From contig JAFGCX010000007.1 in NCBI GenBank assembly GCA_016932415.1, positions 124,001 to 188,000 of the forward strand: DNA of 64,000 nucleotides. Reading direction: 5' to 3'. The stretch comes from Candidatus Krumholzibacteriota bacterium (GTDB lineage Bacteria > Krumholzibacteriota > Krumholzibacteriia > Krumholzibacteriales > Krumholzibacteriaceae). Positions 25,727 through 37,378 of the stretch are shown piece by piece. The notes beneath the pieces are model-generated. The model had not been told where the DNA came from, ran no database searches, and worked only from the letters and a program-made list of their open reading frames with translations. A program made the position numbers and the translations under genes. The stretch's first letter is position 1. Every line of letters begins with the position of its first letter.

Positions 25727-26302
25727 ATGCGTTACCTGACCGCAACTTTATTGTTGCTTCTCATTGTGATCAATCCGTTGCTGTCCGCCTCTGGTGAGGC
25801 GCGCGCCAGTGAACCGGGAGAATTCTCGGAGTGGGCGATGTCCCAGAGCGCCGCCATCGACCGGGACTGGCAAAAAGCTATGGGCCGAAGTTCCGCTTCG
25901 GTCACTGCTGGCCAGTATGTTCGGACAGGGATCTCATCATCAAGCTATAGCATCTCTGGAAAAAGGATAAGATATCAGAAGAGAAACGGTTGGAACGGAC
26001 AGATAAACGCGTCCGGGTACATCCACCCGTCGATCTCAGGCACCTTTCTTCCCCAGACGAGCAGACTTAGAAACGGGGCTTCGCGGGGAACAGGGATGAT
26101 CACCTCACCCTCGAAAGTACTTCGTGGCGGTAACCGCCGGATGCCGTTCAATTCGATGAATTTCAGCAGAAATACCGGCATCAGTCGGGGAACTGAAAGG
26201 ATGCACCCCGACTTCGGGTCAAGGATCAGTTCAAGTTCAAGGAAGAGCAGGAGTTACTCCACCGGTTCCCTCGGATCGTCAAGATCGAGGAAAAGGCGGT
26301 AA
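25727..26302 (+). CDS. Basic Ser/Arg/Gly-rich secreted protein of unknown family
   Basis: 191 residues. A strong signal peptide (RYLTATLLLLLIVINPLL, cleavage near SASGEARA) and GGGAAG about 5 bases before the ATG support the call. The mature chain is low in acidic residues and becomes increasingly Ser/Arg/Gly-rich; the last 30 residues (SSSSRKSRSYSTGSLGSS then RSRKRR) are strongly basic. A repeated S-I-S-G element occurs (SISGKRI, SISGTFL). No known domain recognised. Extreme basic charge suggests binding to acidic surface polymers or nucleic acid, which is only an inference. It has its own sigma-70 promoter and lies just before the PEP-CTERM island. Confidence 0.65.
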   Translation: MRYLTATLLLLLIVINPLLSASGEARASEPGEFSEWAMSQSAAIDRDWQKAMGRSSASVTAGQYVRTGISSSSYSISGKRIRYQKRNGWNGQINASGYIHPSISGTFLPQTSRLRNGASRGTGMITSPSKVLRGGNRRMPFNSMNFSRNTGISRGTERMHPDFGSRISSSSRKSRSYSTGSLGSSRSRKRR

Positions 26303-26459
26303 GATACGACCTCCGCTCACCTGGGGGAATATGCCCCGGCCGGAGGACAGAGCAACGACGATATGTCGAGATTCTTTACAGGTTTAAAGCTGGGGAATAT
26401 GACCCAACATTTGGAGTGCGCAATTTGTTATTTTAATGGATGTTACAAAAAGAGATCGA

Positions 26460-26474
26460 TGGCACGCACCTTGC
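26460..26474 (+). promoter_or_regulatory. Sigma-54 promoter of the first PEP-CTERM gene
   Basis: TGGCAC at 26460-26465, a 5-base spacer and TTGC at 26471-26474: exact match to the -24/-12 consensus with GG-N10-GC spacing. It lies 67 bases before the ATG at 26542. No sigma-70 signal is seen nearby. The expected activator is PrsR, encoded at 35198. Confidence 0.85.
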
Positions 26475-26541
26475 GGTCACTAATATGAAAAGTCAGAGTA
26501 TTTTCGTTGTTTATAATGGAATTCGACACAAAGGAGCGGAT

Positions 26542-27234
26542 ATGAAAAGGATCAATATTTTTCTGGCGGCCCTGCTGGCTTCGGCTCTGGTCGCCGGACC
26601 AGCCAGCGCGGTTCCAAAACTACAGACCTACATAGTCGGTTCAGATTTTCAATACAACTACGCTCCGATTGAAAGCGATACCTGGGTCACGACATCGGGC
26701 AGCTTCGATCTGAAGGTGGTCGGATACTGGCATCCGATTCCGGAGGACCCGCCTCTGGATATGGTCCTCGCTCCACCGACGTACGATTATCTCGATGTCT
26801 GCCTGATGATCAGCGCTCCGACAGATCAGTCCGGAACAGTATGGATCAATGGAATCGAGATCAACTCTTTCTGCAATAATTATAACAGACAGGAAACAGG
26901 CCTCGACTGGAATACGAAGGGGTTGTTCCGCAAAGACATGAACCTCGCCTTTTACAAGGTAGGCAGGATAGACAACAAACAGGCTAACGCGTGGAACTAC
27001 GACCATGGCCTGATCCATGAACGGGGATGGGGCGATGAAGCTCTCCTCGATGTCGTCGTCAGAGGTTTTTCCTGGACTCACTTTGATGCCATAGGCATAG
27101 ATTCGCACGGCAAAAGGTACAGGAATCCCCATTCGCACGACTCAAGCTATTTCGCTACCCCTGAACCGGGAACGCTAAGCCTGCTCGGGCTCGGTCTTCT
27201 TGGACTGGTTCCTATTCTGAGAAGAAACAGGTAG
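26542..27234 (+). CDS. PEP-CTERM 'choice-of-anchor N' protein, copy 1
   Basis: 230 residues: signal peptide (KRINIFLAALLASALVAG, ending SASA/AVP), a roughly 175-residue beta-rich domain starting VPKLQTYIVGSDF, and a C-terminal PEP-CTERM signal: PEPGTLSLLGLGLLGLVPIL then RRNR. This tail is recognised and cut by exosortase, leading to secretion or glycan-linked anchoring. The mature domain matches the choice-of-anchor N type by its opening and by WVTTSGSFDLKVVGYW, GTVWINGIEI and GWGDEALLDVVVRGF. ATG 26542 follows AAAGGAGCGGAT; the open frame extends further upstream but would run through the promoter. First of three paralogues. Confidence 0.88.
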   Translation: MKRINIFLAALLASALVAGPASAVPKLQTYIVGSDFQYNYAPIESDTWVTTSGSFDLKVVGYWHPIPEDPPLDMVLAPPTYDYLDVCLMISAPTDQSGTVWINGIEINSFCNNYNRQETGLDWNTKGLFRKDMNLAFYKVGRIDNKQANAWNYDHGLIHERGWGDEALLDVVVRGFSWTHFDAIGIDSHGKRYRNPHSHDSSYFATPEPGTLSLLGLGLLGLVPILRRNR

Positions 27235-27260
27235 CAACCCATAACGATATTGATCTTTTA

Positions 27261-27294
27261 CGGCTCCTCTGCTTCGATCGAGGTAGAGGAGCCG
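27261..27294 (+). terminator. Strong hairpin between PEP-CTERM copies 1 and 2
   Basis: CGGCTCCTCT (27261-27270) pairs perfectly with AGAGGAGCCG (27285-27294); the loop contains a further TCGATCGA palindrome. It begins 26 bases after the stop. Only a short pyrimidine-rich stretch follows rather than a T-run, so it is a terminator or attenuator of moderate certainty. Confidence 0.5.
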
Positions 27295-27451
27295 GATCCC
27301 CTTCCTGACCCGCGCTGCGACTCCTTAAAAAATCGATCCGAAAGGGCTCAAAACGTCGGCATTCCTTACGCTTTTTAGATTGTTTGGCAAACGCCTGGAT
27401 AGAGCAAATGTAACATCTTGAATTTATTAGTGATACACACGCTTAAAAAAG

Positions 27452-27466
27452 TGGCATGCAGATTGC
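27452..27466 (+). promoter_or_regulatory. Sigma-54 promoter of PEP-CTERM copies 2 and 3
   Basis: TGGCAT at 27452-27457, 5-base spacer, TTGC at 27463-27466, again GG-N10-GC. It lies 70 bases before the ATG at 27537, nearly the same distance as in copy 1. Copy 3 has no promoter of its own in the 37-base gap and is presumably co-transcribed. Confidence 0.82.
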
Positions 27467-27536
27467 GATAATATGGGTGTTTGCAGCTATATTATGTAAA
27501 TTATAATCGATTCCGACACCAGAAAAGGGAAAAAAG

Positions 27537-28250
27537 ATGAAAAGGTTCCATGTTTTTACAGCCGCGATGCTCGCCGCAGTCCTGTTCGCGGGCTCCGCTG
27601 TCGCCGTCCCAAGGATCCAGACCTATATCACCGATTCACGGTATGAGAATTTCCACAGTATTCTCGACCAGAGATCCTGGATCACCAACTCCCAGGAATT
27701 CGATCTGCATGTAGTAGGATACTGGGGAGAGGTCAATAGGGATGCAATCAACAGCGGAATAGATTACTGTTATCCCACGCGTGATTATATGGAATGTTAC
27801 GTGGCGATAAGCGTCCCTATCTGCCAGTCTGGAACGATATGGATCAACGGAGAGGAAATCAGCACTTTCTACAATTTTGGCGATGCTGTTCCTCCGGGCG
27901 CCGATCCCGCCTGGTACCTTCGCTGGGCTCCTCCCGCTACCTTCGGAAAATTCAACTTCTATAAGGCTGGAGTGATCGATAACAGCCAGCCAAACGCGTG
28001 GCACTACGACCATGGGTTGATCCATTCACCAGGGTGGGGCGACGAGAAGATTCTCGATGTGGTAGTAAAGGGTTTTTCCTGGACGCATTTTGACGCGATC
28101 GGGATCGATGCGAGGGGAGTCACCTATACCAACCCATGGGATTACGACGCGACATATTTCTACTCGACTCCCGAACCGGGCACTCTCAGCCTTCTCGGCC
28201 TCGGACTTCTCGGTATTGCTCCTCTGCTGAGAAGGAAGAATAAATCATAG
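27537..28250 (+). CDS. PEP-CTERM 'choice-of-anchor N' protein, copy 2
   Basis: 237 residues. Signal peptide KRFHVFTAAMLAAVLFAG, mature domain opening VPRIQTYITDSRYENF, and the same core motifs as its neighbours (FDLHVVGYW, GTIWINGEEI, GWGDEKILDVVVKGFSWTHF). The tail is PEPGTLSLLGLGLLGIAPLL followed by RRKNKS. It shares with copy 1 the NAW-x-YDHGLIH and WTHFDAIGID blocks, so those two are related over their whole length. The last 68 coding bases before the final codons are identical to copy 3. AAAAGGG lies upstream of the ATG. Substrate of the exosortase encoded 0.9 kb downstream. Confidence 0.88.
   Translation: MKRFHVFTAAMLAAVLFAGSAVAVPRIQTYITDSRYENFHSILDQRSWITNSQEFDLHVVGYWGEVNRDAINSGIDYCYPTRDYMECYVAISVPICQSGTIWINGEEISTFYNFGDAVPPGADPAWYLRWAPPATFGKFNFYKAGVIDNSQPNAWHYDHGLIHSPGWGDEKILDVVVKGFSWTHFDAIGIDARGVTYTNPWDYDATYFYSTPEPGTLSLLGLGLLGIAPLLRRKNKS
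28167..28234 (+). repeat. 68-bp perfect direct repeat, first copy (PEP-CTERM tail)
   Basis: Bases 28167-28234 of copy 2 are identical to 28918-28985 of copy 3, while sequence on both sides differs. The repeat covers the PEP motif, hydrophobic segment and first Arg codon of the sorting tail. See the matching entry at 28918. Confidence 0.9.
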
Positions 28251-28287
28251 GACAACAGCTTACTTTTTGAACGGAAGGTTTTTTGAA

Positions 28288-29001
28288 ATGGGCAAATGTT
28301 CGATTCTGGCGACTCTGCTCCTCTCTCTCTCTCTGATCGGTTCATCAGCGATGGCTGTCCCGAAACTGCAGACATATATTACCGGTTCGGATTATTATTA
28401 CAATTACTCCGGTGATGAGGATTCGTGGGTAACGACATCCGGCAATTTTGACCTGAAGGTAGTCGGATACTGGGATCCGATGGTACCAACAACTACATCA
28501 GGTCTGGATTCCGAGATGCTGGCATTCAGACCAGATTACGATTACATGGAAGTCTATGTCGTCGTAAATGTCCCTACAGGTCAGAGTGGCACTGTCTGGA
28601 TTAACGGCGTAGAGATAAACACATTCTATAACTACGGCGACGCCGGACTCGCTTCCGCTGCTCCATCCTGGTATAACAAGACCATGTTGCCCAGCATCCA
28701 TAATTTCAACTTCTACCGTGTTGGAGAAATGGACAACCTCCGTGCGAACGCATGGCATTATGATGAAGGCATTATACACGAGCAGGGGTGGGGAGACGAA
28801 GCTCTTCTCGATGTAGTGGTGAGGGGATTCGAATTTGCGAACTTTGACGCTATCGGAATCGACTCCTACGGCAAGAGGTATGTAAGTCCCAACTCCCATG
28901 ACGCAAGTTATTTTGCCACTCCCGAACCGGGCACTCTCAGCCTTCTCGGCCTCGGACTTCTCGGTATTGCTCCTCTGCTGAGAAGAAAAAAGAACTCCTG
29001 A
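28288..29001 (+). CDS. PEP-CTERM 'choice-of-anchor N' protein, copy 3
   Basis: 237 residues from the ATG at 28288 (GGAAGG 9 bases upstream; the in-frame TTG at 28267 is less likely). Signal peptide GKCSILATLLLSLSLIGS ending AMA; mature domain VPKLQTYITGSDYYYNYS, closest to copy 1 at this point (WVTTSGNFDLKVVGYW, GTVWINGVEINTFYNYG, GWGDEALLDVVVRGFEF). Tail identical to copy 2 (PEPGTLSLLGLGLLGIAPLL) then RRKKNS. It starts 37 bases after copy 2 without an intervening terminator or promoter, so the two share a transcript. Confidence 0.88.
   Translation: MGKCSILATLLLSLSLIGSSAMAVPKLQTYITGSDYYYNYSGDEDSWVTTSGNFDLKVVGYWDPMVPTTTSGLDSEMLAFRPDYDYMEVYVVVNVPTGQSGTVWINGVEINTFYNYGDAGLASAAPSWYNKTMLPSIHNFNFYRVGEMDNLRANAWHYDEGIIHEQGWGDEALLDVVVRGFEFANFDAIGIDSYGKRYVSPNSHDASYFATPEPGTLSLLGLGLLGIAPLLRRKKNS
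28918..28985 (+). repeat. 68-bp perfect direct repeat, second copy (PEP-CTERM tail)
   Basis: Identical to 28167-28234. Copy 1 (26542-27234) encodes nearly the same tail with several synonymous differences, so protein-level selection alone does not require base identity; gene conversion or recent duplication of the tail is indicated. Confidence 0.9.
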
Positions 29002-29030
29002 TCCTGACTCTCGTCAGGGTGGAATAGAAA

Positions 29031-29061
29031 AGGGCGCGGCAAAAGACCGCGTCCTTTTTTT
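29031..29061 (+). terminator. Rho-independent terminator after PEP-CTERM copy 3
   Basis: GGGCGCGG (29032-29039) pairs with CCGCGTCC (29047-29054) around a 7-base loop and is followed by seven T. A smaller hairpin, CCTGAC/GTCAGG at 29003-29018, directly follows the stop codon. The terminator ends just before the next sigma-54 promoter. Confidence 0.85.
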
Positions 29062-29062
29062 A

Positions 29063-29077
29063 TGGTACCTCTTTTGC
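29063..29077 (+). promoter_or_regulatory. Sigma-54 promoter of the exosortase-prsK-prsR operon
   Basis: TGGTAC at 29063-29068, 5-base spacer, TTGC at 29074-29077; one mismatch to TGGCAC, but the invariant GG and GC with N10 spacing are present. It follows a terminator and precedes the exosortase start by 82 bases, so it is placed as the operon promoter. This would let PrsR activate its own gene. Confidence 0.7.
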
Positions 29078-29159
29078 TGCTCATTCTTCTTGCCAATACA
29101 GGCGGATAACTTATAAGATTCCACTACAATGCCGCATCGACCGTATCAGAGGAGGCTTC

Positions 29160-30014
29160 TTGTCCAGTATCGCGGATCATGATAGAACAGGATCAAAAGC
29201 GCCGGGGCTGATCCTGATCGCGTCATCTGCCGTTCTGATATCTATCCTCTACTTCCCTGTGCTCTTGAGCCTGGTGAGACAATGGATAAATGATCCTAAC
29301 TACCAGCATGGGCTCATCATACCGTTCGTCTCGGCATTTATACTCTGGAAGCGTCGAGAAAAGCTGAAGAACGCTCCCGATGGCAGGCATAGATTCGCGG
29401 GATTACTGGTCATTCTCTTCGCTTCTCTCCTGCTTATCGCCGGCACAGCCGCTTCGGAACTTTTTACCACTCGCTTCTCATTTCCAATCCTGATCTTCGG
29501 TACAATACTCTTTATATTTGGCGACAGGATAGCGAGAGTCACAGCCTTTCCCGTCCTTTTTCTGATCCTTGCCATACCCCTGCCGTATATAATCTATTAC
29601 AAGATCACATTCCCGATGCAGATCTTCAGCGCGAGGCTGAGCACATCGATCCTGAAGATGGCAGGCGTCAGCATAATCAGAAAAGGAAATATACTGCAAT
29701 TGCCTGAATATACTCTCGAAGTTGTCGCTGCCTGCAGCGGGCTTCGCTCGTTGATGACGATGGTCACGATCGCGATGATATTCACTGTTTTCTCAGGTTT
29801 CTCAAGGACCAAGAATTTGATTCTCGTCGCCGCTTCGATTCCGGTAGCGATAGCGGCCAACGCGATACGCCTTACCATTACGGCGCTCGGAGCCTATACG
29901 ATAGGACCCGAGTTCGCGGACGGACCGATACATGAGATATCAGGCCTGATAGTATTCGTGGCGGGAATGCTTCTGCTTCTTCTCTGCGCGAGGATATTGA
30001 AATGGGTAAAATAA
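29160..30014 (+). CDS. xrt: Exosortase (PEP-CTERM sorting enzyme)
   Basis: 284 residues, about eight membrane spans, inner membrane. Exosortase is a cysteine transpeptidase-like enzyme that recognises PEP-CTERM tails. The catalytic triad is visible: Cys192 in VVAACSGLRS, Arg237 in ANAIRLT and His258 in GPIHEISG. Conserved lipid-facing segment NDPNYQHGLIIPFVSAFILW is also present near the N-terminus. Starts with TTG at 29160 just after GGAGG (4-base gap). Overlaps epsI by 13 bases. First gene of a six-gene operon that also encodes the regulators, and directly downstream of three likely substrates. Subtype (XrtA versus others) is not decided. Confidence 0.93.
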   Translation: MSSIADHDRTGSKAPGLILIASSAVLISILYFPVLLSLVRQWINDPNYQHGLIIPFVSAFILWKRREKLKNAPDGRHRFAGLLVILFASLLLIAGTAASELFTTRFSFPILIFGTILFIFGDRIARVTAFPVLFLILAIPLPYIIYYKITFPMQIFSARLSTSILKMAGVSIIRKGNILQLPEYTLEVVAACSGLRSLMTMVTIAMIFTVFSGFSRTKNLILVAASIPVAIAANAIRLTITALGAYTIGPEFADGPIHEISGLIVFVAGMLLLLLCARILKWVK

Positions 30015-30664
30015 ACCGTCTTATCGTCGTCATTCTGATACTCTCGCTACTTATGGTCTATACGATGAAATTGCGCGAAAAAAAGGCCGGTGAGATCTCT
30101 CTTCCAGATTTCTCACTCATTCCGTCCGAATCGGGGCATTATAGTTCTGACGACTATTATATAGGGATCGAATCGCTGAAAGTGCTCGGCGCCGACACGA
30201 CGCTTGTCAGGTCGTATACTTCGCCGGGAGGAATGGAGATAGAGTTTTTCCTCGGGTATTTTTCAAGCCAGCAGGAGAATTCCCAGATTCACTCGCCAAA
30301 ACACTGTTACCCCGGTTCAGGGTGGGATATTATCAGCGAGGAGAAACTGAGGATCGATTTTGAAAACGGCCCCGGATCGGTCAAGCGGTTGATGATCTCG
30401 AATGGCAGGGAAGAAAGGCTGGTCATATACTGGTTCAGCATGAACGGAGATGCCATCCCTGACGAGTTCTCGCTGAAATACCACCAGATGAAAAACACCC
30501 TCCTGTCGCGACCCCAGGCTGCCGCGTTTATCCGATTCTCAACCGTCGTCAGGCCTGGAGGAGACAAAAATATCGAGGAAGAGATGTTTAGATTCATAAG
30601 TGGAATAAATCCCGATATAATGGCAGCGCTTAAACCGGGGCGACCTTTGAAGAATCGAGGGTAG
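30002..30664 (+). CDS. epsI: EpsI domain protein, exosortase-associated
   Basis: 220 residues: one N-terminal membrane anchor (NRLIVVILILSLLMVYTM), then a periplasmic domain with HSPKHCYPGSGW, the hallmark of the EpsI family that is often fused to or encoded beside exosortases. In other genomes EpsI is needed for polysaccharide and exosortase-dependent export; its exact role is unknown. The start overlaps the exosortase coding end by 13 bases, and the stop is immediately followed by the next ATG, so the three genes are coupled. Confidence 0.88.
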   Translation: MGKINRLIVVILILSLLMVYTMKLREKKAGEISLPDFSLIPSESGHYSSDDYYIGIESLKVLGADTTLVRSYTSPGGMEIEFFLGYFSSQQENSQIHSPKHCYPGSGWDIISEEKLRIDFENGPGSVKRLMISNGREERLVIYWFSMNGDAIPDEFSLKYHQMKNTLLSRPQAAAFIRFSTVVRPGGDKNIEEEMFRFISGINPDIMAALKPGRPLKNRG

Positions 30665-31546
30665 ATGACGAAGACATTCATCAGTGAAAAAAACAGCACG
30701 GGAAAAAGGTTCGATATTTCCGCAAGCCTGAAGGAAACATTCAGTTCCTTCCATTCCGCTATATCGATCCTGCGTGATTTCAGGATCGCGATTCCATCGA
30801 TCATCTTCCTGACTATTCACCTGGGCATATTGATATTATACCTTTCAAGCCTTGAGCCTCCCCTTACATCGTTCTGGGCCCTTTTCATAAGGGGGCTTTC
30901 CGGTTCCGATATAGGGCATTTCCCCGGCCACATCATCCTCATGCAACCGATCCTTGACCGGCTGGATATCCTGATAGACATATTCATCAATATAATATTC
31001 CAGGGAGTGACGGTGATCCTTGTCTTCAGTTTCGCTTTTGACAGGTCTCTCTCCCTCCGGGATGGATTCCGTGGAACGCTGGGTAAGTATCTCCAGCTGC
31101 TCCTGGTCTCTGTTGTCGCCTCCACGCTCATATACGCGGTATTCCTTCTCGTTGGAAATATCAGGGCGGGGGCTGGGGTCTTGGAGGGATACATCATATA
31201 TTCGGCAGGCATCGTGATCGCGCTCGCGATACAGGGATTGTTCTTATATACGACTCCCGCGATCCTTCTCTACGACGCCGATTTTTTCAGATCGGTCAGA
31301 AAAAGCTTCTCAATTGCCGCTGATTCGGCGGCGACAACTTTTTTCGTGGTGCTTTTTCCATTCATATTGACTCTGCCTACAACGTTCATAGGGATAAAAG
31401 CCGGACTGATCGCCACGAGGCTTTCTCCCGATTTCATAATATATAATTACGTCGTCTCATCGATCATCGAGATGATATCCACCTATCTGATCATTGCAGG
31501 TGGGACCATCATCTTCATGGGAAGGATGAAAAACAGCCTTGGCTGA
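30665..31546 (+). CDS. Polytopic membrane protein of unknown function in the exosortase operon
   Basis: 293 residues with about six hydrophobic segments (near 42-64, 95-130, 140-165, 172-200, 220-245, 258-285). The second half (EGYIIYSAGIVIALAIQGLF, SVRKSFSIAADSAATTFFVV) resembles the loosely conserved membrane domain of GlpQ-linked or DUF975/YciC-type proteins, but no firm family is recognised. ATG follows the epsI stop directly. Its position between epsI and prsK makes an auxiliary role in sorting, or in transport to the sorting site, plausible. Confidence 0.7.
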   Translation: MTKTFISEKNSTGKRFDISASLKETFSSFHSAISILRDFRIAIPSIIFLTIHLGILILYLSSLEPPLTSFWALFIRGLSGSDIGHFPGHIILMQPILDRLDILIDIFINIIFQGVTVILVFSFAFDRSLSLRDGFRGTLGKYLQLLLVSVVASTLIYAVFLLVGNIRAGAGVLEGYIIYSAGIVIALAIQGLFLYTTPAILLYDADFFRSVRKSFSIAADSAATTFFVVLFPFILTLPTTFIGIKAGLIATRLSPDFIIYNYVVSSIIEMISTYLIIAGGTIIFMGRMKNSLG

Positions 31547-31588
31547 GGACCGGATCACCTTTTCGAGGTCGCCGACTCTGGAGGAAAA

Positions 31589-33079
31589 ATGAACGGAAAG
31601 ATCAATATCTGCATCGTCATCCTGATGGTATTCCTTGCCATTTCGGCCTGTTCAAGCGGAGAAAAATCGACCCTCTACAGGGCGGAAAAAGAACTCTTCG
31701 AGGCGAGAAAGCTCAACCGCGAACTTAAGCCTGGATCGACGAGCAACGAATTCATCGAAAAGGCTGTCGGCAGCTACCGGTCGATCGTCGATCGGTATTC
31801 ATCAGGCGCCGGAAGCGTCGAAGGGATGGAAATGATCGTCGTTTCAGCTCAGATCGAACTCGCCGAACTTGAATTCCGCGCCGGTGACCTGGAAAACTCG
31901 ATCGCTGATTTTCAGAAAGCGTACCTGCTCGCCGACAACATCCCCGAGGCAAAAGCGAACGCCCTATGGTCGGCCGCTTTCATATCAGAGCAGAACGGAG
32001 ATGCCTCTGAAGCGATTAGGCTCTTTGAAAAATTCTCCGAAGAATATCTGGGCCGGAACACGATAGAAAAGACATCTAGGATGAACACCCGGTACCTTCT
32101 TGTTCCGGTGAGGCTTTCAAATCTTTACAACTTCCTGGGGCGTCAGGAAGAGGGATCGGCCGCTCTGGGCAAAGGTGAACAGTCATATAGGGCTATACTC
32201 TCGAAGGCTAAGGACCCCGTCCTGGTGAGAGAAACGCAGTACAACCTTGTGACAGTCCTGCTTGAGCAGAAAAAATGGGGCGACGCTCTCGCGCTGGTGA
32301 GGGAGATGGAAAACCTCTACCGTAACGAAAAAGACAGGCCGGCTCTTATGTTTCTTGAAGCCAAGATCGAGATGGAAGGGTTTGACCGGCAGGAAAAGGC
32401 TTCAGCGATCTTTACATCGATCGTCGATGAGTTCCCGGACGCTCAGGAAACAGTCCCCGCCCTTCTGATGATCGCCGGCATACATCAGGGATCGGGCAGA
32501 TATAAAGAAGCGGAAGAGGTCTACAACAGGATCATCAGGGACCACAAATCCTCAGGCAGCGGAGTAGTCGAAGCCACATGGCAGCTCGCCAATATCTCCG
32601 AGATCCAGGGCAGGTGGATCGACGCGTCCCTGCATTTCAAATCTATCTACACAAGCTTTCCGACGACTCTGCAGGGAATGGAATCGCCGCTCAGGATCGC
32701 GGCGCACTTCGAAGACAACGGCGAAAAGGACGCGGCCGATAACGCTTACGAAAGGGCCCTGGAACATTACGAGACCCTCCTCTCAAGAGAAAATCCCCTG
32801 GGTATAAGAATTATGGCCGAAGAATACGCGGTAAGGATACTGTCGTTGCAGAAAAAGTGGAAGGAAGCGGCGGAGCGCCTCACAACTCTCCCTGACAAAT
32901 ATCCCGAATACGGAAGATTCGCGCAGAATTACCTCACAGCCGCTTCGATTTATGAAAAGGAGCTCGGGGACAGGGAAAAAGCGATCGAGACTCTCCAGGC
33001 ATGCGTCGAACGATATGAAGGTTCCGATCTGGCAGTCGAGGCCCAAAGACATCTGGAAAGAATAAGAGAAGAACAATGA
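31589..33079 (+). CDS. TPR-repeat lipoprotein in the exosortase operon
   Basis: 496 residues. The signal peptide ends in the lipobox AISAC, with Cys21 as the lipidated residue. The mature protein is almost wholly helical with tetratricopeptide-type pairs, e.g. ENSIADFQKAYLLADNIPEA, GDASEAIRLFEKFSEEYLGR, GRYKEAEEVYNRIIRDHKSS and GDREKAIETLQACVERYEGS. GGAGG precedes the ATG closely. It is likely a periplasmic or outer-membrane-attached scaffold; TPR proteins of the PrsT/PEP-CTERM type accompany XrtA loci elsewhere, and this may be the counterpart. ATGA overlap with prsK. Confidence 0.78.
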   Translation: MNGKINICIVILMVFLAISACSSGEKSTLYRAEKELFEARKLNRELKPGSTSNEFIEKAVGSYRSIVDRYSSGAGSVEGMEMIVVSAQIELAELEFRAGDLENSIADFQKAYLLADNIPEAKANALWSAAFISEQNGDASEAIRLFEKFSEEYLGRNTIEKTSRMNTRYLLVPVRLSNLYNFLGRQEEGSAALGKGEQSYRAILSKAKDPVLVRETQYNLVTVLLEQKKWGDALALVREMENLYRNEKDRPALMFLEAKIEMEGFDRQEKASAIFTSIVDEFPDAQETVPALLMIAGIHQGSGRYKEAEEVYNRIIRDHKSSGSGVVEATWQLANISEIQGRWIDASLHFKSIYTSFPTTLQGMESPLRIAAHFEDNGEKDAADNAYERALEHYETLLSRENPLGIRIMAEEYAVRILSLQKKWKEAAERLTTLPDKYPEYGRFAQNYLTAASIYEKELGDREKAIETLQACVERYEGSDLAVEAQRHLERIREEQ

Positions 33080-35181
33080 ACCTATTTGCTCCAATCCTCT
33101 CCTATACCGCGTCGGGGCTTCTTGTTCTCCTGGCATTGACAGCCATCGCCCGGCGACGTTTCAATTACCAGAAACGCTTCTTTATTCCTCTGGTCTTTGT
33201 CTTCGCCTTCATCATGATTCTGGTCTCCCTGATCGTTCGATCCGGCTCGCCGGATCAGACTCAGACCCTTTTGAGAATACTCATTGCCACGACGATCTCT
33301 TCACCGGCTTTTGGGATCCCGTTCTTTCGTTTCTTCGCGCGCGAGAGTGGCTCCGTCTCACCATGGAAGAGCTTGCCGGCAATGATGATCCTTTTTATGA
33401 TCCTGTTTGCAGGCAGCTTTCTCATTCCGATCCATCACCTTGTCCGGGCAATTTCCATGGAGGAAAAAGGGTTTCTCTATCAACTGTCATTCACCTGGGC
33501 AGGGAAGGGATTGGGTGTCTTTATCCTTCTGGTCAATGTCTGCTATTTATATTTCATGGAAAACACGTACAGGGCAGCTAACATACAGGGAAAAGTCACC
33601 CTTAAATACCCGATGCTAGGAATGTTGACAGCCTCACTGCTTAATTTTGTAGTCATGAGCAGGCTTCTCTCCCTTTCATCCGTCGATCGCAGATTCCTGA
33701 TCGTTGAGACATGCGGTATTATAATTGTCGCCGTTACTTTTCTCTACGCAAATATCCGTTATAACTTCTTCGAGATAGGGATTCCGGCGAAAAAGGAAAA
33801 TAATTCAACGATAACTGTCATGATCGCGGGGCTGTATTTTATTTCGATCGGACTTATCTCCTGGATATCGGCTCTGGCCGGACTGCCGTACGACCGGTTT
33901 CACCTCTATGTAATAGGTATATTTATAGCCTTCCTGCTTCTTTCGATAGGCATTTCGGGCAGAGTGAGAAGAAGACTCCGTATATTCCTCAACGACAATT
34001 TTTATCTCGAGAACTACAACTACCGCAGGGAATGGCGCCATTTCTCCAGGCTGATGGCCACCAGCCTGAGAATAGAGGATTTTCTCTCCAACACGATAGG
34101 ATCGCTCTGCGAGACTGTGATGGTCCAGAGAGGGATAATATGGGTCGATATCAGGAACGGGAAAGAGGCGTCGTATGGAGCGACTGGAGAAGACTGGACT
34201 CCTGAAACTCCTGGCTGGCTGCTTTCACTATGCAGAGATGGCAGGTTCGAGGGGCTGAACAGGAGATTCAACAGGAAAATCCCTTCCCTTGCCGAGAGGA
34301 GCGGCGAAGAAGAATCAGATCATATACCCTGCTGGATCCGGTTCATCGCTCCGCTGGGACATGGTGAAGAAACCAAGGGTTTCATCGCACTCGGAGTCAA
34401 AGATACCGGCGCGCCGTTCGGGCAGGAGGATGAGACCTTTCTCGAGACGATCGCCGATCAGGCTTTAATAACGATCGATAACCTTCTGATGGAAGAAAGA
34501 TTTCTCGAATCAAAGCAGATCGAATCGTTCAACCGCTTTGCTTCATTTGTAATACACGACCTTAAAAATACCGTCGGGATGCTTTCACTGACAGCGGAAA
34601 ACGCCAGGGAAAACATGGATGACAAGGAATTCCAGAAAGATACGATTCAAACGATAAAAAGATCGGTCGAAAAGATGCAGGATCTGATCAACTCCCTCAA
34701 TGCCCATAAATATCCCGGGAATATAAGCAGGACTAGAACGGAGATCGTTTCTCTCGTCAGGGACAAGGCCGCCCATCTAATGCCCGCGGCGCAAAACCGG
34801 AAGATATCGCTGGATTTCTCACCGCCGGGCGAATTGTACGCGCATGTCGATCGATCGGCAATCGAAAGGATCATCGAGAACCTGATCCTCAATTCTGTCG
34901 ACGCGACGGGAGAAAACGGGAAGATAACGATCACTATCTCGGTTGATGACCGGGAAGGGATAACTCTTACCGTCGCCGATACCGGAAAAGGATTCGATGC
35001 CGAATATCTGAAGAACGATCTTTTCAAACCGTTCAGCAGCACAAAGAAAAACGGCCTCGGGATAGGACTCGCCCTGTGCAAATCAATGATCGAGGCTCAT
35101 GGAGGATCGATATCGATCAATAATCTTGGTGGAAACGGCGCGGTCGTATCGATTAAAATACCCGGTATCGATTCAAATTGA
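33076..35181 (+). CDS. prsK: PEP-CTERM system sensor histidine kinase PrsK
   Basis: 701 residues. Eight or so N-terminal membrane spans (about 5-295), a cytoplasmic GAF-like domain (about 315-470), a dimerisation/phosphoacceptor helix with His494 in FVIHDLKNTVG, and an HATPase_c domain with NLILNSVDATGENG (N box), VADTGKGFD (G1) and GLGIGLALCKSMIEAHGG (G2). This architecture and the FVIHDLKN motif are those of PrsK, the kinase paired with PrsR at exosortase loci. The sensed signal is unknown. Starts within the stop of the lipoprotein gene (ATGA); 16 bases separate it from prsR. Confidence 0.9.
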   Translation: MNLFAPILSYTASGLLVLLALTAIARRRFNYQKRFFIPLVFVFAFIMILVSLIVRSGSPDQTQTLLRILIATTISSPAFGIPFFRFFARESGSVSPWKSLPAMMILFMILFAGSFLIPIHHLVRAISMEEKGFLYQLSFTWAGKGLGVFILLVNVCYLYFMENTYRAANIQGKVTLKYPMLGMLTASLLNFVVMSRLLSLSSVDRRFLIVETCGIIIVAVTFLYANIRYNFFEIGIPAKKENNSTITVMIAGLYFISIGLISWISALAGLPYDRFHLYVIGIFIAFLLLSIGISGRVRRRLRIFLNDNFYLENYNYRREWRHFSRLMATSLRIEDFLSNTIGSLCETVMVQRGIIWVDIRNGKEASYGATGEDWTPETPGWLLSLCRDGRFEGLNRRFNRKIPSLAERSGEEESDHIPCWIRFIAPLGHGEETKGFIALGVKDTGAPFGQEDETFLETIADQALITIDNLLMEERFLESKQIESFNRFASFVIHDLKNTVGMLSLTAENARENMDDKEFQKDTIQTIKRSVEKMQDLINSLNAHKYPGNISRTRTEIVSLVRDKAAHLMPAAQNRKISLDFSPPGELYAHVDRSAIERIIENLILNSVDATGENGKITITISVDDREGITLTVADTGKGFDAEYLKNDLFKPFSSTKKNGLGIGLALCKSMIEAHGGSISINNLGGNGAVVSIKIPGIDSN

Positions 35182-35197
35182 CGGAAAGGTGCTTTAA

Positions 35198-36628
35198 TTG
35201 GCGTCAACAAAACTGTTAATAGTCGACGACGAAGAAGCCATTCTGAAACAACTTGAATGGGCTTTTAAAAAAGATTACAGGATCATTAAGGCATCAACCA
35301 TCGAAGATGCCCTCACTGCTGTAAAAAACGAATCACCCCAGTTGATGATCCTCGACCTCTCCCTGACAAGCGAGTCCGAGGGATTTGAAGGATTCGAAAT
35401 ACTGGAGAAGGCCCTTCAGATAGAGCCCGGGATCAAAATCATCGTGATTACCGGACATGATTACAAGGAGAATGCTTTCAGGGCTCTTGAATCCGGAGCG
35501 ATCGACTTCTATTCCAAACCGGTCGATATCGACGAATTGAGAGTGATACTCGGAAGAGCTTCATACATCCATTCCCTCGAGTCGATGATCAAAGACCTCA
35601 AATCAGCCCCCGGAAAAGGGCATGAGTTCGAAAGCATCATATCGATGTCCGGGACAATGCTCGATATTTTCGAGACCATACGAAGGATCGCGCCGACAGA
35701 TGTCGCCGTCCTCATTACCGGTGAGAGCGGGACGGGGAAGGAACTGATCGCCAGGGCGATTCATTCGAGAAGTACGCGAAAGAACAAGCCATTCATTCCG
35801 ATAAACTGCGGAGCAATACCGGAGAACCTTCTTGAAAGCGAGCTCTTCGGCCATGAAAAAGGCAGTTTTACAGGTGCTGTCTCCTCAAAACCGGGAAAAT
35901 TCGAGATCGCCGAGGGAGGGACGATCTTTCTCGATGAGATAGGCGAACTCCCCCTTTCCCTGCAGGTCAAAATACTGAGATTCCTCCAGGATCACGTCAT
36001 CGAAAGAGTGGGGGGACAGAAACCCCTCCAGCTCGATCTGAGGGTGATAGCCGCGACCAACAGGGACCTTACAACGATGATCGAAGAGAGGACGTTCAGA
36101 GAGGACCTTTACTACAGGATAAACACCATAAAGATCGCTCTCCCCCCCCTTCGCGACCGTGGCCAGGATATCCTTCTGCTGGCGATGTATTTTCTCCATC
36201 ACTACAATTCCGAATTCTCAAAGAACGTCAAGACCTTCAGTCAGTCAGCCCGTAATATCCTTTACACTCATTCATGGCCCGGAAATGTCCGTGAACTGGA
36301 AAACAGGGTGAAGAGGGCAGTGATCATGACATCCGGAAGGATCATTCAGCCCGAAGACATGGACCTGGCCCCTGACCAGGCCGGCGCTGCCGCGGAATCT
36401 CGCCAGGGCGGCTCCGGCGCGTCTATTACACCACTGTCGATCCCATCCCTTAAAGAAGCAAGAGACGACCTTGAACAGAGGATGATAACCGACGCGCTCC
36501 TCAGGTTCTCGGGAAACGTCTCGGCGGCGGCGCAGGAACTCGGCATCAGCAGGCCTACTCTTCATGATCTTATGAAAAAACATGATGTCGCTCCGGAAGA
36601 CTTCAGAACTTCGAAACGAAAAAAATAG
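35198..36628 (+). CDS. prsR: PEP-CTERM-box response regulator PrsR (sigma-54 activator)
   Basis: 476 residues. Receiver domain (1-125) with Asp53 in MILDLSL and Lys near 106; AAA+ central domain with Walker A GESGTGKELIARAIH, the sigma-54-contacting loop GSFTGA (normal GAFTGA with Ala to Ser), Walker B GGTIFLDEIGEL; and a C-terminal Fis-type helix-turn-helix NVSAAAQELGISRPTLHDLM. It activates transcription by sigma-54 polymerase. TTG start at 35198, preceded by AAAGGTG. Three sigma-54 promoters in the same island (26460, 27452, 29063) are the obvious targets, including that of its own operon. Confidence 0.93.
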   Translation: MASTKLLIVDDEEAILKQLEWAFKKDYRIIKASTIEDALTAVKNESPQLMILDLSLTSESEGFEGFEILEKALQIEPGIKIIVITGHDYKENAFRALESGAIDFYSKPVDIDELRVILGRASYIHSLESMIKDLKSAPGKGHEFESIISMSGTMLDIFETIRRIAPTDVAVLITGESGTGKELIARAIHSRSTRKNKPFIPINCGAIPENLLESELFGHEKGSFTGAVSSKPGKFEIAEGGTIFLDEIGELPLSLQVKILRFLQDHVIERVGGQKPLQLDLRVIAATNRDLTTMIEERTFREDLYYRINTIKIALPPLRDRGQDILLLAMYFLHHYNSEFSKNVKTFSQSARNILYTHSWPGNVRELENRVKRAVIMTSGRIIQPEDMDLAPDQAGAAAESRQGGSGASITPLSIPSLKEARDDLEQRMITDALLRFSGNVSAAAQELGISRPTLHDLMKKHDVAPEDFRTSKRKK

Positions 36629-37009
36629 GATCCCCATGCCTGCGGGAAGACCGTAACGCATTATCCATCGTCAGGGGCGCCGCCGCTATGGTAATGCCGA
36701 TTAGCAATCTGTCGCGGCGGAGACGCAATTTATTCAACAGCGCAAAATGATCTCGCGGCCAGAGCTTCTGCCGGGATCGGGCGAAAATGGAGACCCTCCG
36801 GGCATTTTCTTCCCCGTTTCCTTCCGTTGCGCGTTGCTCCCCATGATTGATAATCAGGCAGGCTTTTACCTCGAATATTCCCCTTTCTACAGATGCTGAC
36901 AGTCAGGGAAAGATCCGCGCGGCATCGTGTGGTACAGATTTTGCCAGAAACGGGGCGACACCTTGATGACAATAGAGCGGCTGGACTTCAATTGGCGAAA
37001 GGTGATGAC
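36629..37009. other. Intergenic region between prsR and the FHA gene
   Basis: About 380 bases. A 7-bp GC stem, CCGCCGC (36680-36686) with GCGGCGG (36714-36720), encloses a 27-base loop containing TGC-N6-GCA; no T-run follows. It could end the prsR transcript or belong to a small RNA; evidence is weak. No gene or clear promoter seen. Confidence 0.35.
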
Positions 37010-37378
37010 GTGTCTGCAAGAAACAGTACGAGGAATCCCGTTTCCGGAAACAGGAAAAGCAGCAAAAGGAAAAAGAGCAGTGAAGGGAAAAAAGCTGCCG
37101 TTGAAATTGTAAATGGCTGTTTTTCGGGACTGGTAATCGATATAACCGGAAAAACGACAACGTTCGGCAGCGATATCGATTGCGATATCTGTCTTGACCA
37201 TTCGTTCGTATCTTCGGAACACGCTGTCATTACCGGAGAAAGCGGATCCTATTACCTTGAGGATCTCAACAGCCGGCATGGCACGAGCATCGGTGGCCGG
37301 GAGATACACAAGGTCAAGCTTAACAGCGGCGATCTTATAGGAATCGGGAATTTTCAGTTGAAATTCAAATATATGTGA
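37010..37378 (+). CDS. Small FHA-domain protein
   Basis: About 122 residues from GTG at 37010 (AAAGGTG upstream); the open frame continues further left but with no domain-like sequence. A Lys/Ser/Arg-rich N-terminal tail (about 1-30) precedes a forkhead-associated domain: GKTTTFGSDIDCDICLDHSF, VSSEHAVITGE, YYLEDLNSRHGTSIGG. GSDxxxDI, SSEHA and LNSRHGT are the phosphothreonine-binding loops. Likely reads Ser/Thr phosphorylation in the cytoplasm; no kinase gene is in the window. Monocistronic, ending in a strong terminator. Confidence 0.82.
   Translation: MSARNSTRNPVSGNRKSSKRKKSSEGKKAAVEIVNGCFSGLVIDITGKTTTFGSDIDCDICLDHSFVSSEHAVITGESGSYYLEDLNSRHGTSIGGREIHKVKLNSGDLIGIGNFQLKFKYM

Follow-up and report, generated by a model that had tools for sequence, protein, structure and literature searches.

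Putative facing PrsR operators and sigma-54 promoters at a PEP-CTERM/exosortase locus of Candidatus Krumholzibacteriota

We analyzed a 64,000-nucleotide stretch of a contig from a Candidatus Krumholzibacteriota bacterium (hereafter, the window) and the PEP-CTERM locus that it carries. As the initial annotation had read from the letters alone, the locus encodes three PEP-CTERM substrates, an exosortase, PrsK and PrsR:

26542-27234, + strand: PEP-CTERM substrate 1, choice-of-anchor N (NF038141, PF07589)
27537-28250, + strand: PEP-CTERM substrate 2, choice-of-anchor N (family profile matches)
28288-29001, + strand: PEP-CTERM substrate 3, choice-of-anchor N, 37 nt after gene 2
29160-30014, + strand: exosortase (xrt), EpsH family, TTG start (PF09721, TIGR02602)
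30002-30664, + strand: EpsI (TIGR02914)
30665-31546, + strand: conserved membrane protein without a family match, syntenic in relatives
31589-33079, + strand: TPR lipoprotein at the PrsT position, syntenic in relatives
33076-35181, + strand: PrsK-type histidine kinase (TIGR02916), adjoining prsR
35198-36628, + strand: PrsR, sigma-54 activator response regulator, TTG start (TIGR02915, PF00158, PF02954)

The only PEP-CTERM genes in the genome are these three, all at this locus. The exosortase scores below every subtype cut-off (195.9 vs. 208 bits for XrtA), and the best genome match to EpsB2 (TIGR03013) reached 190 bits vs. a cut-off of 393. An XrtA/EpsB2 exopolysaccharide cluster was considered and rejected, as the genome gave no match above cut-off. 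The TPR lipoprotein gave no match to PrsT (TIGR02917). PrsK aligns over its full length to TIGR02916, its best family by far, at 295.2 bits vs. a cut-off of 300, while PrsR scores 561.1 bits, above the TIGR02915 cut-off of 502.6, and contains the sigma-54 activator domain previously ascribed to it, with both GESGTGKE and GSFTGA present. PrsR is found above the TIGR02915 cut-off in 17 of 75 genomes of the phylum, and the order PEP-xrt-epsI-orf-TPR-prsK-prsR recurs in every family locus of sufficient length, as well as in families f2 and f8. Upstream of the PEP-CTERM genes lies a gene (25727-26302) for a 191-aa, secreted-looking protein without an assigned family, which recurs there in most relatives.

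Three -24/-12 promoters had been proposed at this locus, 67, 70 and 82 nt from start codons at 26542, 27537 and 29160. Both the sites, with their GG-N10-GC geometry, and these distances are correct, and a fourth site lies beyond prsR:

26460-26474, + strand: sigma-54 -24/-12 promoter of PEP-CTERM gene 1, TGGCACGCACCTTGC, GG-N10-GC
27452-27466, + strand: sigma-54 promoter of PEP-CTERM genes 2 and 3, TGGCATGCAGATTGC, GG-N10-GC
29063-29077, + strand: sigma-54 promoter of the xrt-prsKR operon, TGGTACCTCTTTTGC, GG-N10-GC
36930-36944, + strand: fourth sigma-54 promoter, before the FHA gene, TGGTACAGATTTTGC, exact match
37010-37378, + strand: FHA-domain protein, GTG start after AAAGGTG, 65 nt from the -12 GC

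A promoter of its own was looked for at PEP-CTERM gene 3, and none was found. In the 64-kb window alone, the three matches (≤1 mismatch) are not significant, with 1.8 expected. The 3.11-Mb genome contains 41 exact matches to TGGYAYN5TTGC vs. 17 to the reversed pattern; all genome counts use the exact pattern, since our sigma-54 weights are approximations that served for ranking only. A simple hexamer-based gene caller places 39 of these 41 matches in intergenic DNA, with a co-oriented gene downstream of 35, vs. none of the 17 reversed matches, all of which fall within genes (Fisher p ~ 9e-13). A genome-wide scan, which the initial annotation had named as a check, thus returns sites that are not randomly placed, and almost every exact match appears to act like a real sigma-54 promoter. 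Reading the three sites of the locus as sigma-54 promoters is further supported by the recurrence of each in relatives. The PEP-CTERM site is kept wherever the region is readable, at about 58-78 nt from the start codon (67 and 70 nt here), and the FHA site is conserved in all seven family loci that have an FHA gene downstream of prsR.

The suggestion that RpoN sites cluster at PEP-CTERM genes holds in so far as each PEP-CTERM transcription unit has one, but most of the 41 sites lie elsewhere, indicating that sigma-54 is a global factor in this organism. The genome has one copy of rpoN and about 21 full sigma-54 activator domains, i.e., about 20 besides PrsR. Exact sites also precede pilin-like, PilM-like, PilB-like, MglA-like GTPase, polysaccharide-export-like and lipoprotein genes (G000; named by eye from their first residues), and surface and motility functions in Krumholzibacteriota appear to be under sigma-54 control. 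Sigma-54 control is not exclusive to the PEP-CTERM/prsKR locus. Given some 21 activators and sites at other genes, it is the PrsR element, and not the -24/-12 box, that would define the regulon.

Such an element was sought by aligning, on the -24 box, the 24 readable PEP-CTERM promoters of the phylum, which come from 19 genomes of families f1, f2 and f8. All 24 carry a 17-bp element, TGTCGRNATNTTTTACA, located 78-83 nt upstream of the -24 box, in which the positions GTCG and TTAC are invariant. We designate this copy motif 1a, and an inverted second copy in the 5′ leader motif 1b. At the present locus, the elements are as follows:

26364-26380, + strand: motif 1a, putative PrsR operator of PEP-CTERM gene 1, TGTCGAGATTCTTTACA, 79 nt before the -24 box
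26391-26406, no strand assigned: GGGG/CCC dyad, TGGGGAATATGACCCA, columns +28 to +42, at a fixed distance from motif 1a
26512-26528, - strand: motif 1b, inverted second copy in the gene 1 5′ leader, centre 148 bp from the 1a centre
27354-27370, + strand: motif 1a of PEP-CTERM gene 2, CGTCGGCATTCCTTACG, degenerate, 81 nt before the -24 box
27502-27518, - strand: motif 1b in the gene 2 5′ leader, centre 148 bp from the 1a centre

The gene 2 copy of motif 1a has four mismatches and ends in CTTACG. When a matrix built from relatives alone was run over the whole window, the gene 1 copy ranked first and the gene 2 copy second. These PrsR-type operators, like the fourth exact sigma-54 site, were overlooked in the earlier reading, which had suggested searching 80-200 bases upstream of the three promoters for a shared inverted repeat; one is present at the two substrate promoters and absent from the xrt promoter. 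Motif 1 was also searched for at the FHA promoter and was not found there.

In Proteobacteria, the only group from which it was reported, motif 1 is a 17-nt element that ends in TTTACA and was predicted to be the PrsR site; it precedes the sigma-54 motif by 32-92 nt (mean 62.8), with a further ~71 nt to the PEP-CTERM start (Haft 2006, PMC1569441). Our match to this motif is based on its text description and on the shared target genes rather than on its logo. Because the Krumholzibacteriota element fits the predicted PrsR site and marks PEP-CTERM genes, at a fixed and conserved spacing, we infer with good support that PrsR controls the substrates, as had been proposed. The exact composite of motif 1 and a sigma-54 site occurs in nine genomes of the phylum, and PrsR was detected in seven of them; in one of the other two, a contig end truncates PrsR, and the last is incompletely assembled, with its prsK extending to the edge of a contig. 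The organism's own genome contains 50 motif 1 matches with ≤2 mismatches, a threshold outside which the 1a copy of PEP gene 2 falls, and only the PEP gene 1 match is followed by a sigma-54 site at the usual distance. A small lipoprotein gene (G000 C20:117985-118182) has a motif-1-like site with one mismatch 166 nt before an exact sigma-54 promoter and is a possible unlinked PrsR target. Further targets were rejected, as no match other than those of PEP gene 1 and this lipoprotein gene, with its odd gap, has a downstream sigma-54 site. A GGGG-N6-CCCC dyad follows 1a at a fixed distance in many Krumholzibacteriota PEP-CTERM promoters, although it is not obvious at gene 2; it is possibly the site of another protein.

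The pattern derived from Krumholzibacteriota matches a PEP-CTERM gene on a Vibrio prsKR plasmid with 0 mismatches and a gap of 72. Scanning 84,980 genomes for the composite of motif 1 and a sigma-54 site returned at least 119 stretches, nearly all from Proteobacteria or Desulfobacterota. Among the matches listed, 55 of 81 are followed by an open frame that satisfies an automatic test for a PEP-CTERM tail, and several of the others resemble variants on visual inspection. Proteobacterial gaps between motif 1 and the -24 box, again among the matches listed, fall at 62-65, 73-76 and 83-87 nt, i.e., in steps of one helical turn, and between these classes lie only two records, both from Krumholzibacteriia (79 and 80). 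The phasing of the gaps gives R 0.83 at 10.5 bp, and R 0.83 also for the 27 gaps above 70, in a sample that is phylogenetically non-independent and, owing to the scan pattern, contains no gap below 62 nt. In contrast, the ~80-nt gap of Krumholzibacteriota deviates from the proteobacterial phase by about 0.4 turn, which implies that the complex must be built differently from the proteobacterial one.

The second feature that sets these promoters apart is motif 1b, present in 21 of the 24 phylum promoters (matrix score ≥8) vs. 2 of 79 proteobacterial or desulfobacterial ones. Its centre is mostly exactly 148 bp from that of 1a (range 146-151); it is missing from both promoters of G002 and weak in G015. 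Motif 1b departs further from the consensus than does 1a. The best copies (G007, G008 and G077) are near-perfect motif 1 on the opposite strand, suggesting that 1b is most likely the same operator as 1a, and an inverted copy in the leader together with 1a upstream means that the promoter is bracketed. We found no published description of such a facing-operator geometry.

Two other roles for motif 1b were weighed. It might be a leader element affecting mRNA stability or translation, or the -10-like TATAAT of a second start, rather than a PrsR site, since it lies directly before the ribosome binding site and reads TTATAAT on the coding strand in many copies; at gene 2, moreover, a sigma-70-like match (27480-27507) overlaps it. 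We regard this as unlikely, because the best copies lose the TATAAT while nearly reproducing 1a on the opposite strand, and because the spacing to 1a is constant. Inverted repeats that flank a promoter at 100-150 bp also resemble those of known invertible promoters, and 1a and 1b could in principle be the arms of a phase-variable segment. That reading is highly improbable: the arms within a locus are no more alike (4.6 mean differences of 17) than arms of different loci (4.9; permutation p 0.19), a comparison on which we rejected it, every promoter found faces its gene, and a single copy of 1a is the proteobacterial operator. We also rejected a role for 1b as the upstream element of a promoter that reads the opposite way, because the other strand has no conserved sigma-54 site at the matching place and the upstream gene is co-oriented. 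On a deltaproteobacterial contig (L243), an inverted motif 1 copy lies 144 positions upstream of a composite site, perhaps as part of a divergent promoter pair.

Sigma-54 activators with sites downstream of the start include FlrC and FlbD. Their sites lie in the transcribed leader, as motif 1b does, but they are not known to form a fixed facing pair that brackets the promoter, and they serve other regulons. It is quite possible, though short of probable, that the substrate promoters represent a novel sigma-54 architecture, in which the promoter is enclosed by two facing operators of one activator at a rigid distance of 148 bp (14 helical turns). In this reading, the downstream operator would replace the tandem upstream copy of some Proteobacteria, would permit a helical phase that Proteobacteria avoid, and may both activate and limit initiation.

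The promoter of the xrt-prsKR operon is of a different kind. The conserved GG-N10-GC core of its sigma-54 site, TGGCAYCCCTYTTGCT, is retained in families f1, f2 and f8, at 11 of 14 loci; the site is lost in G014, a relative of the same genus, and in G015, and is degenerate in G011. In most loci, it begins immediately downstream of the terminator-like hairpin and T run of a PEP gene, which here is substrate 3. Motif 1 is absent within 300 bp of the promoter in 10 of the 11 loci that have the site, and the best match within that distance at the present locus, at 29063, has five mismatches. The exception is G004, in which motif 1 lies 15 nt before the xrt -24 box (L105, 7808-7824) and may allow prsKR to be directly activated or repressed in that genome. 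At the present locus, we noted one further element downstream of the sigma-54 site:

29090-29117, + strand: sigma-70-like element, TTGCCA-N16-TATAAG

This element is weak on its own, since the single-locus p is about 0.02-0.4, and sigma-70-like matches in the window scan as a whole are not above chance. A TTGNNN-N16/18-TATA-like element is nevertheless found at the same place, ~20 nt downstream of the xrt sigma-54 site, in most loci, including those without a sigma-54 site, and it may be a basal start.

The initial annotation had taken the layout to imply positive autoregulation by PrsR. With no motif 1 at this promoter in all but one locus and a sigma-70-like element at a conserved position, that claim lacks support in this form, and the switch-like circuit built on it is speculation. 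The lack of motif 1 also leaves a single activator for all three promoters unproven, and with no local operator, any effect of PrsR on xrt would have to come from the substrate-gene operators, 0.9-2.7 kb away, or else another activator would be involved.

Sigma-54 enhancers are able to work at distances of a kilobase and beyond, and xrt may be activated at long range from the upstream substrate operators. It is conceivable, and we give it sizeable though minority weight, that PrsR directly drives all three promoters, its own operon included, reaching xrt from the substrate operators by DNA looping or from solution. Retention of the xrt sigma-54 core across three families, the presence of an operator-bearing PEP-CTERM gene directly upstream of xrt in every locus with a readable stretch, and the G004 operator argue for this. 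Against it stand the ten xrt promoters without a nearby motif 1, the loss of the sigma-54 site in G014 with retention of prsKR, and the roughly 20 other full-length activators in the genome. The situation in Aquincola tertiaricarbonis points the same way, since pepA is RpoN-dependent (RpoN1), with a mapped start, but the adjoining prsT is RpoN-independent (PMC9850573). Conversely, the xrt-prsKR operon and the FHA gene might be under sigma-54 with a different activator, PrsR being limited to the substrates. Both promoters have conserved sigma-54 cores and spacer sequences of their own without motif 1, and other activators are available to serve them; however, no alternative shared operator was found at the two promoters, and the stretch from the terminator to the xrt -24 box leaves little space for one. 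We consider this possible, though less likely than not.

Taken together, the locus probably represents a PrsK/PrsR-RpoN PEP-CTERM system in Ca. Krumholzibacteriota, in which PrsR on the facing sites 1a and 1b would open the substrate sigma-54 promoters, and the xrt operon would have its own sigma-54 promoter and a probable basal start. Under this model, PrsR, phosphorylated by PrsK, would bind the 17-bp operator 1a, ~80 nt upstream of the substrate -24 box, and also the inverted 1b in the leader, with 148 bp between the two centres. Once on both facing sites, the protein would enclose the promoter, aid assembly of the ATPase oligomer and open the sigma-54 polymerase, such that an active kinase would lead to production of the substrates. 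The xrt-epsI-orf-TPR-prsK-prsR operon, with a sigma-54 promoter that has no PrsR operator and a probable basal sigma-70-like start, would either be stimulated from afar by the operators upstream of the neighbouring substrate gene or depend on a different activator. For PrsR binding, the pairing of 1a with 1b and the role of phosphorylation, the model draws on knowledge of the family and on work with DVUA0057 and pepA (PMC3333781; PMC9850573).

Comparison with known systems shows what is shared and what is not. The PrsK/PrsR/PrsT system described by Haft has in common with ours the 17-nt, TTTACA-ending motif, the sigma-54 site, ~70 nt to the PEP-CTERM start, the PrsR and PrsK families, the exosortase and EpsI; PrsT belonged to the phylogenetic profile of that study and not to the promoter mechanism (PMC1569441). 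In contrast, Krumholzibacteriota adds an inverted operator downstream of the start, has a gap of ~80 nt that is out of helical phase, lacks a TIGR02917 PrsT at the locus, and gathers PEP, xrt and prsKR compactly at a single locus that has no XrtA exopolysaccharide cluster. Aquincola pepA is likewise a PEP-CTERM gene with a -24/-12 promoter and an upstream predicted enhancer, but with a single reported operator, large exopolysaccharide clusters and an RpoN-independent prsT. In Desulfovibrio vulgaris, DVUA0057, a response regulator that was likewise predicted to act on PEP-CTERM genes, enriched its five predicted PEP-CTERM targets in vitro (PMC3333781); unlike PrsR here, it belongs to a megaplasmid exopolysaccharide operon, and it has no validated binding motif. 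PrsR of the present locus shares 46% identity with the N. vulgaris plasmid homologue.

The circuit is thus a known one with real promoters; what is new is the phylum and the operator geometry, and autoregulation is unproven. A PEP-CTERM promoter code that had been reported as restricted to Proteobacteria is traced to a second phylum with its operator sequence conserved. Motif 1, the spacer and the -24/-12 site together provide a usable signature of PrsR regulons in uncultured bacteria. Finally, the fixed facing pair, considered with the helical phasing seen in Proteobacteria, offers a concrete model for how an NtrC-type activator may be placed relative to the sigma-54 polymerase.
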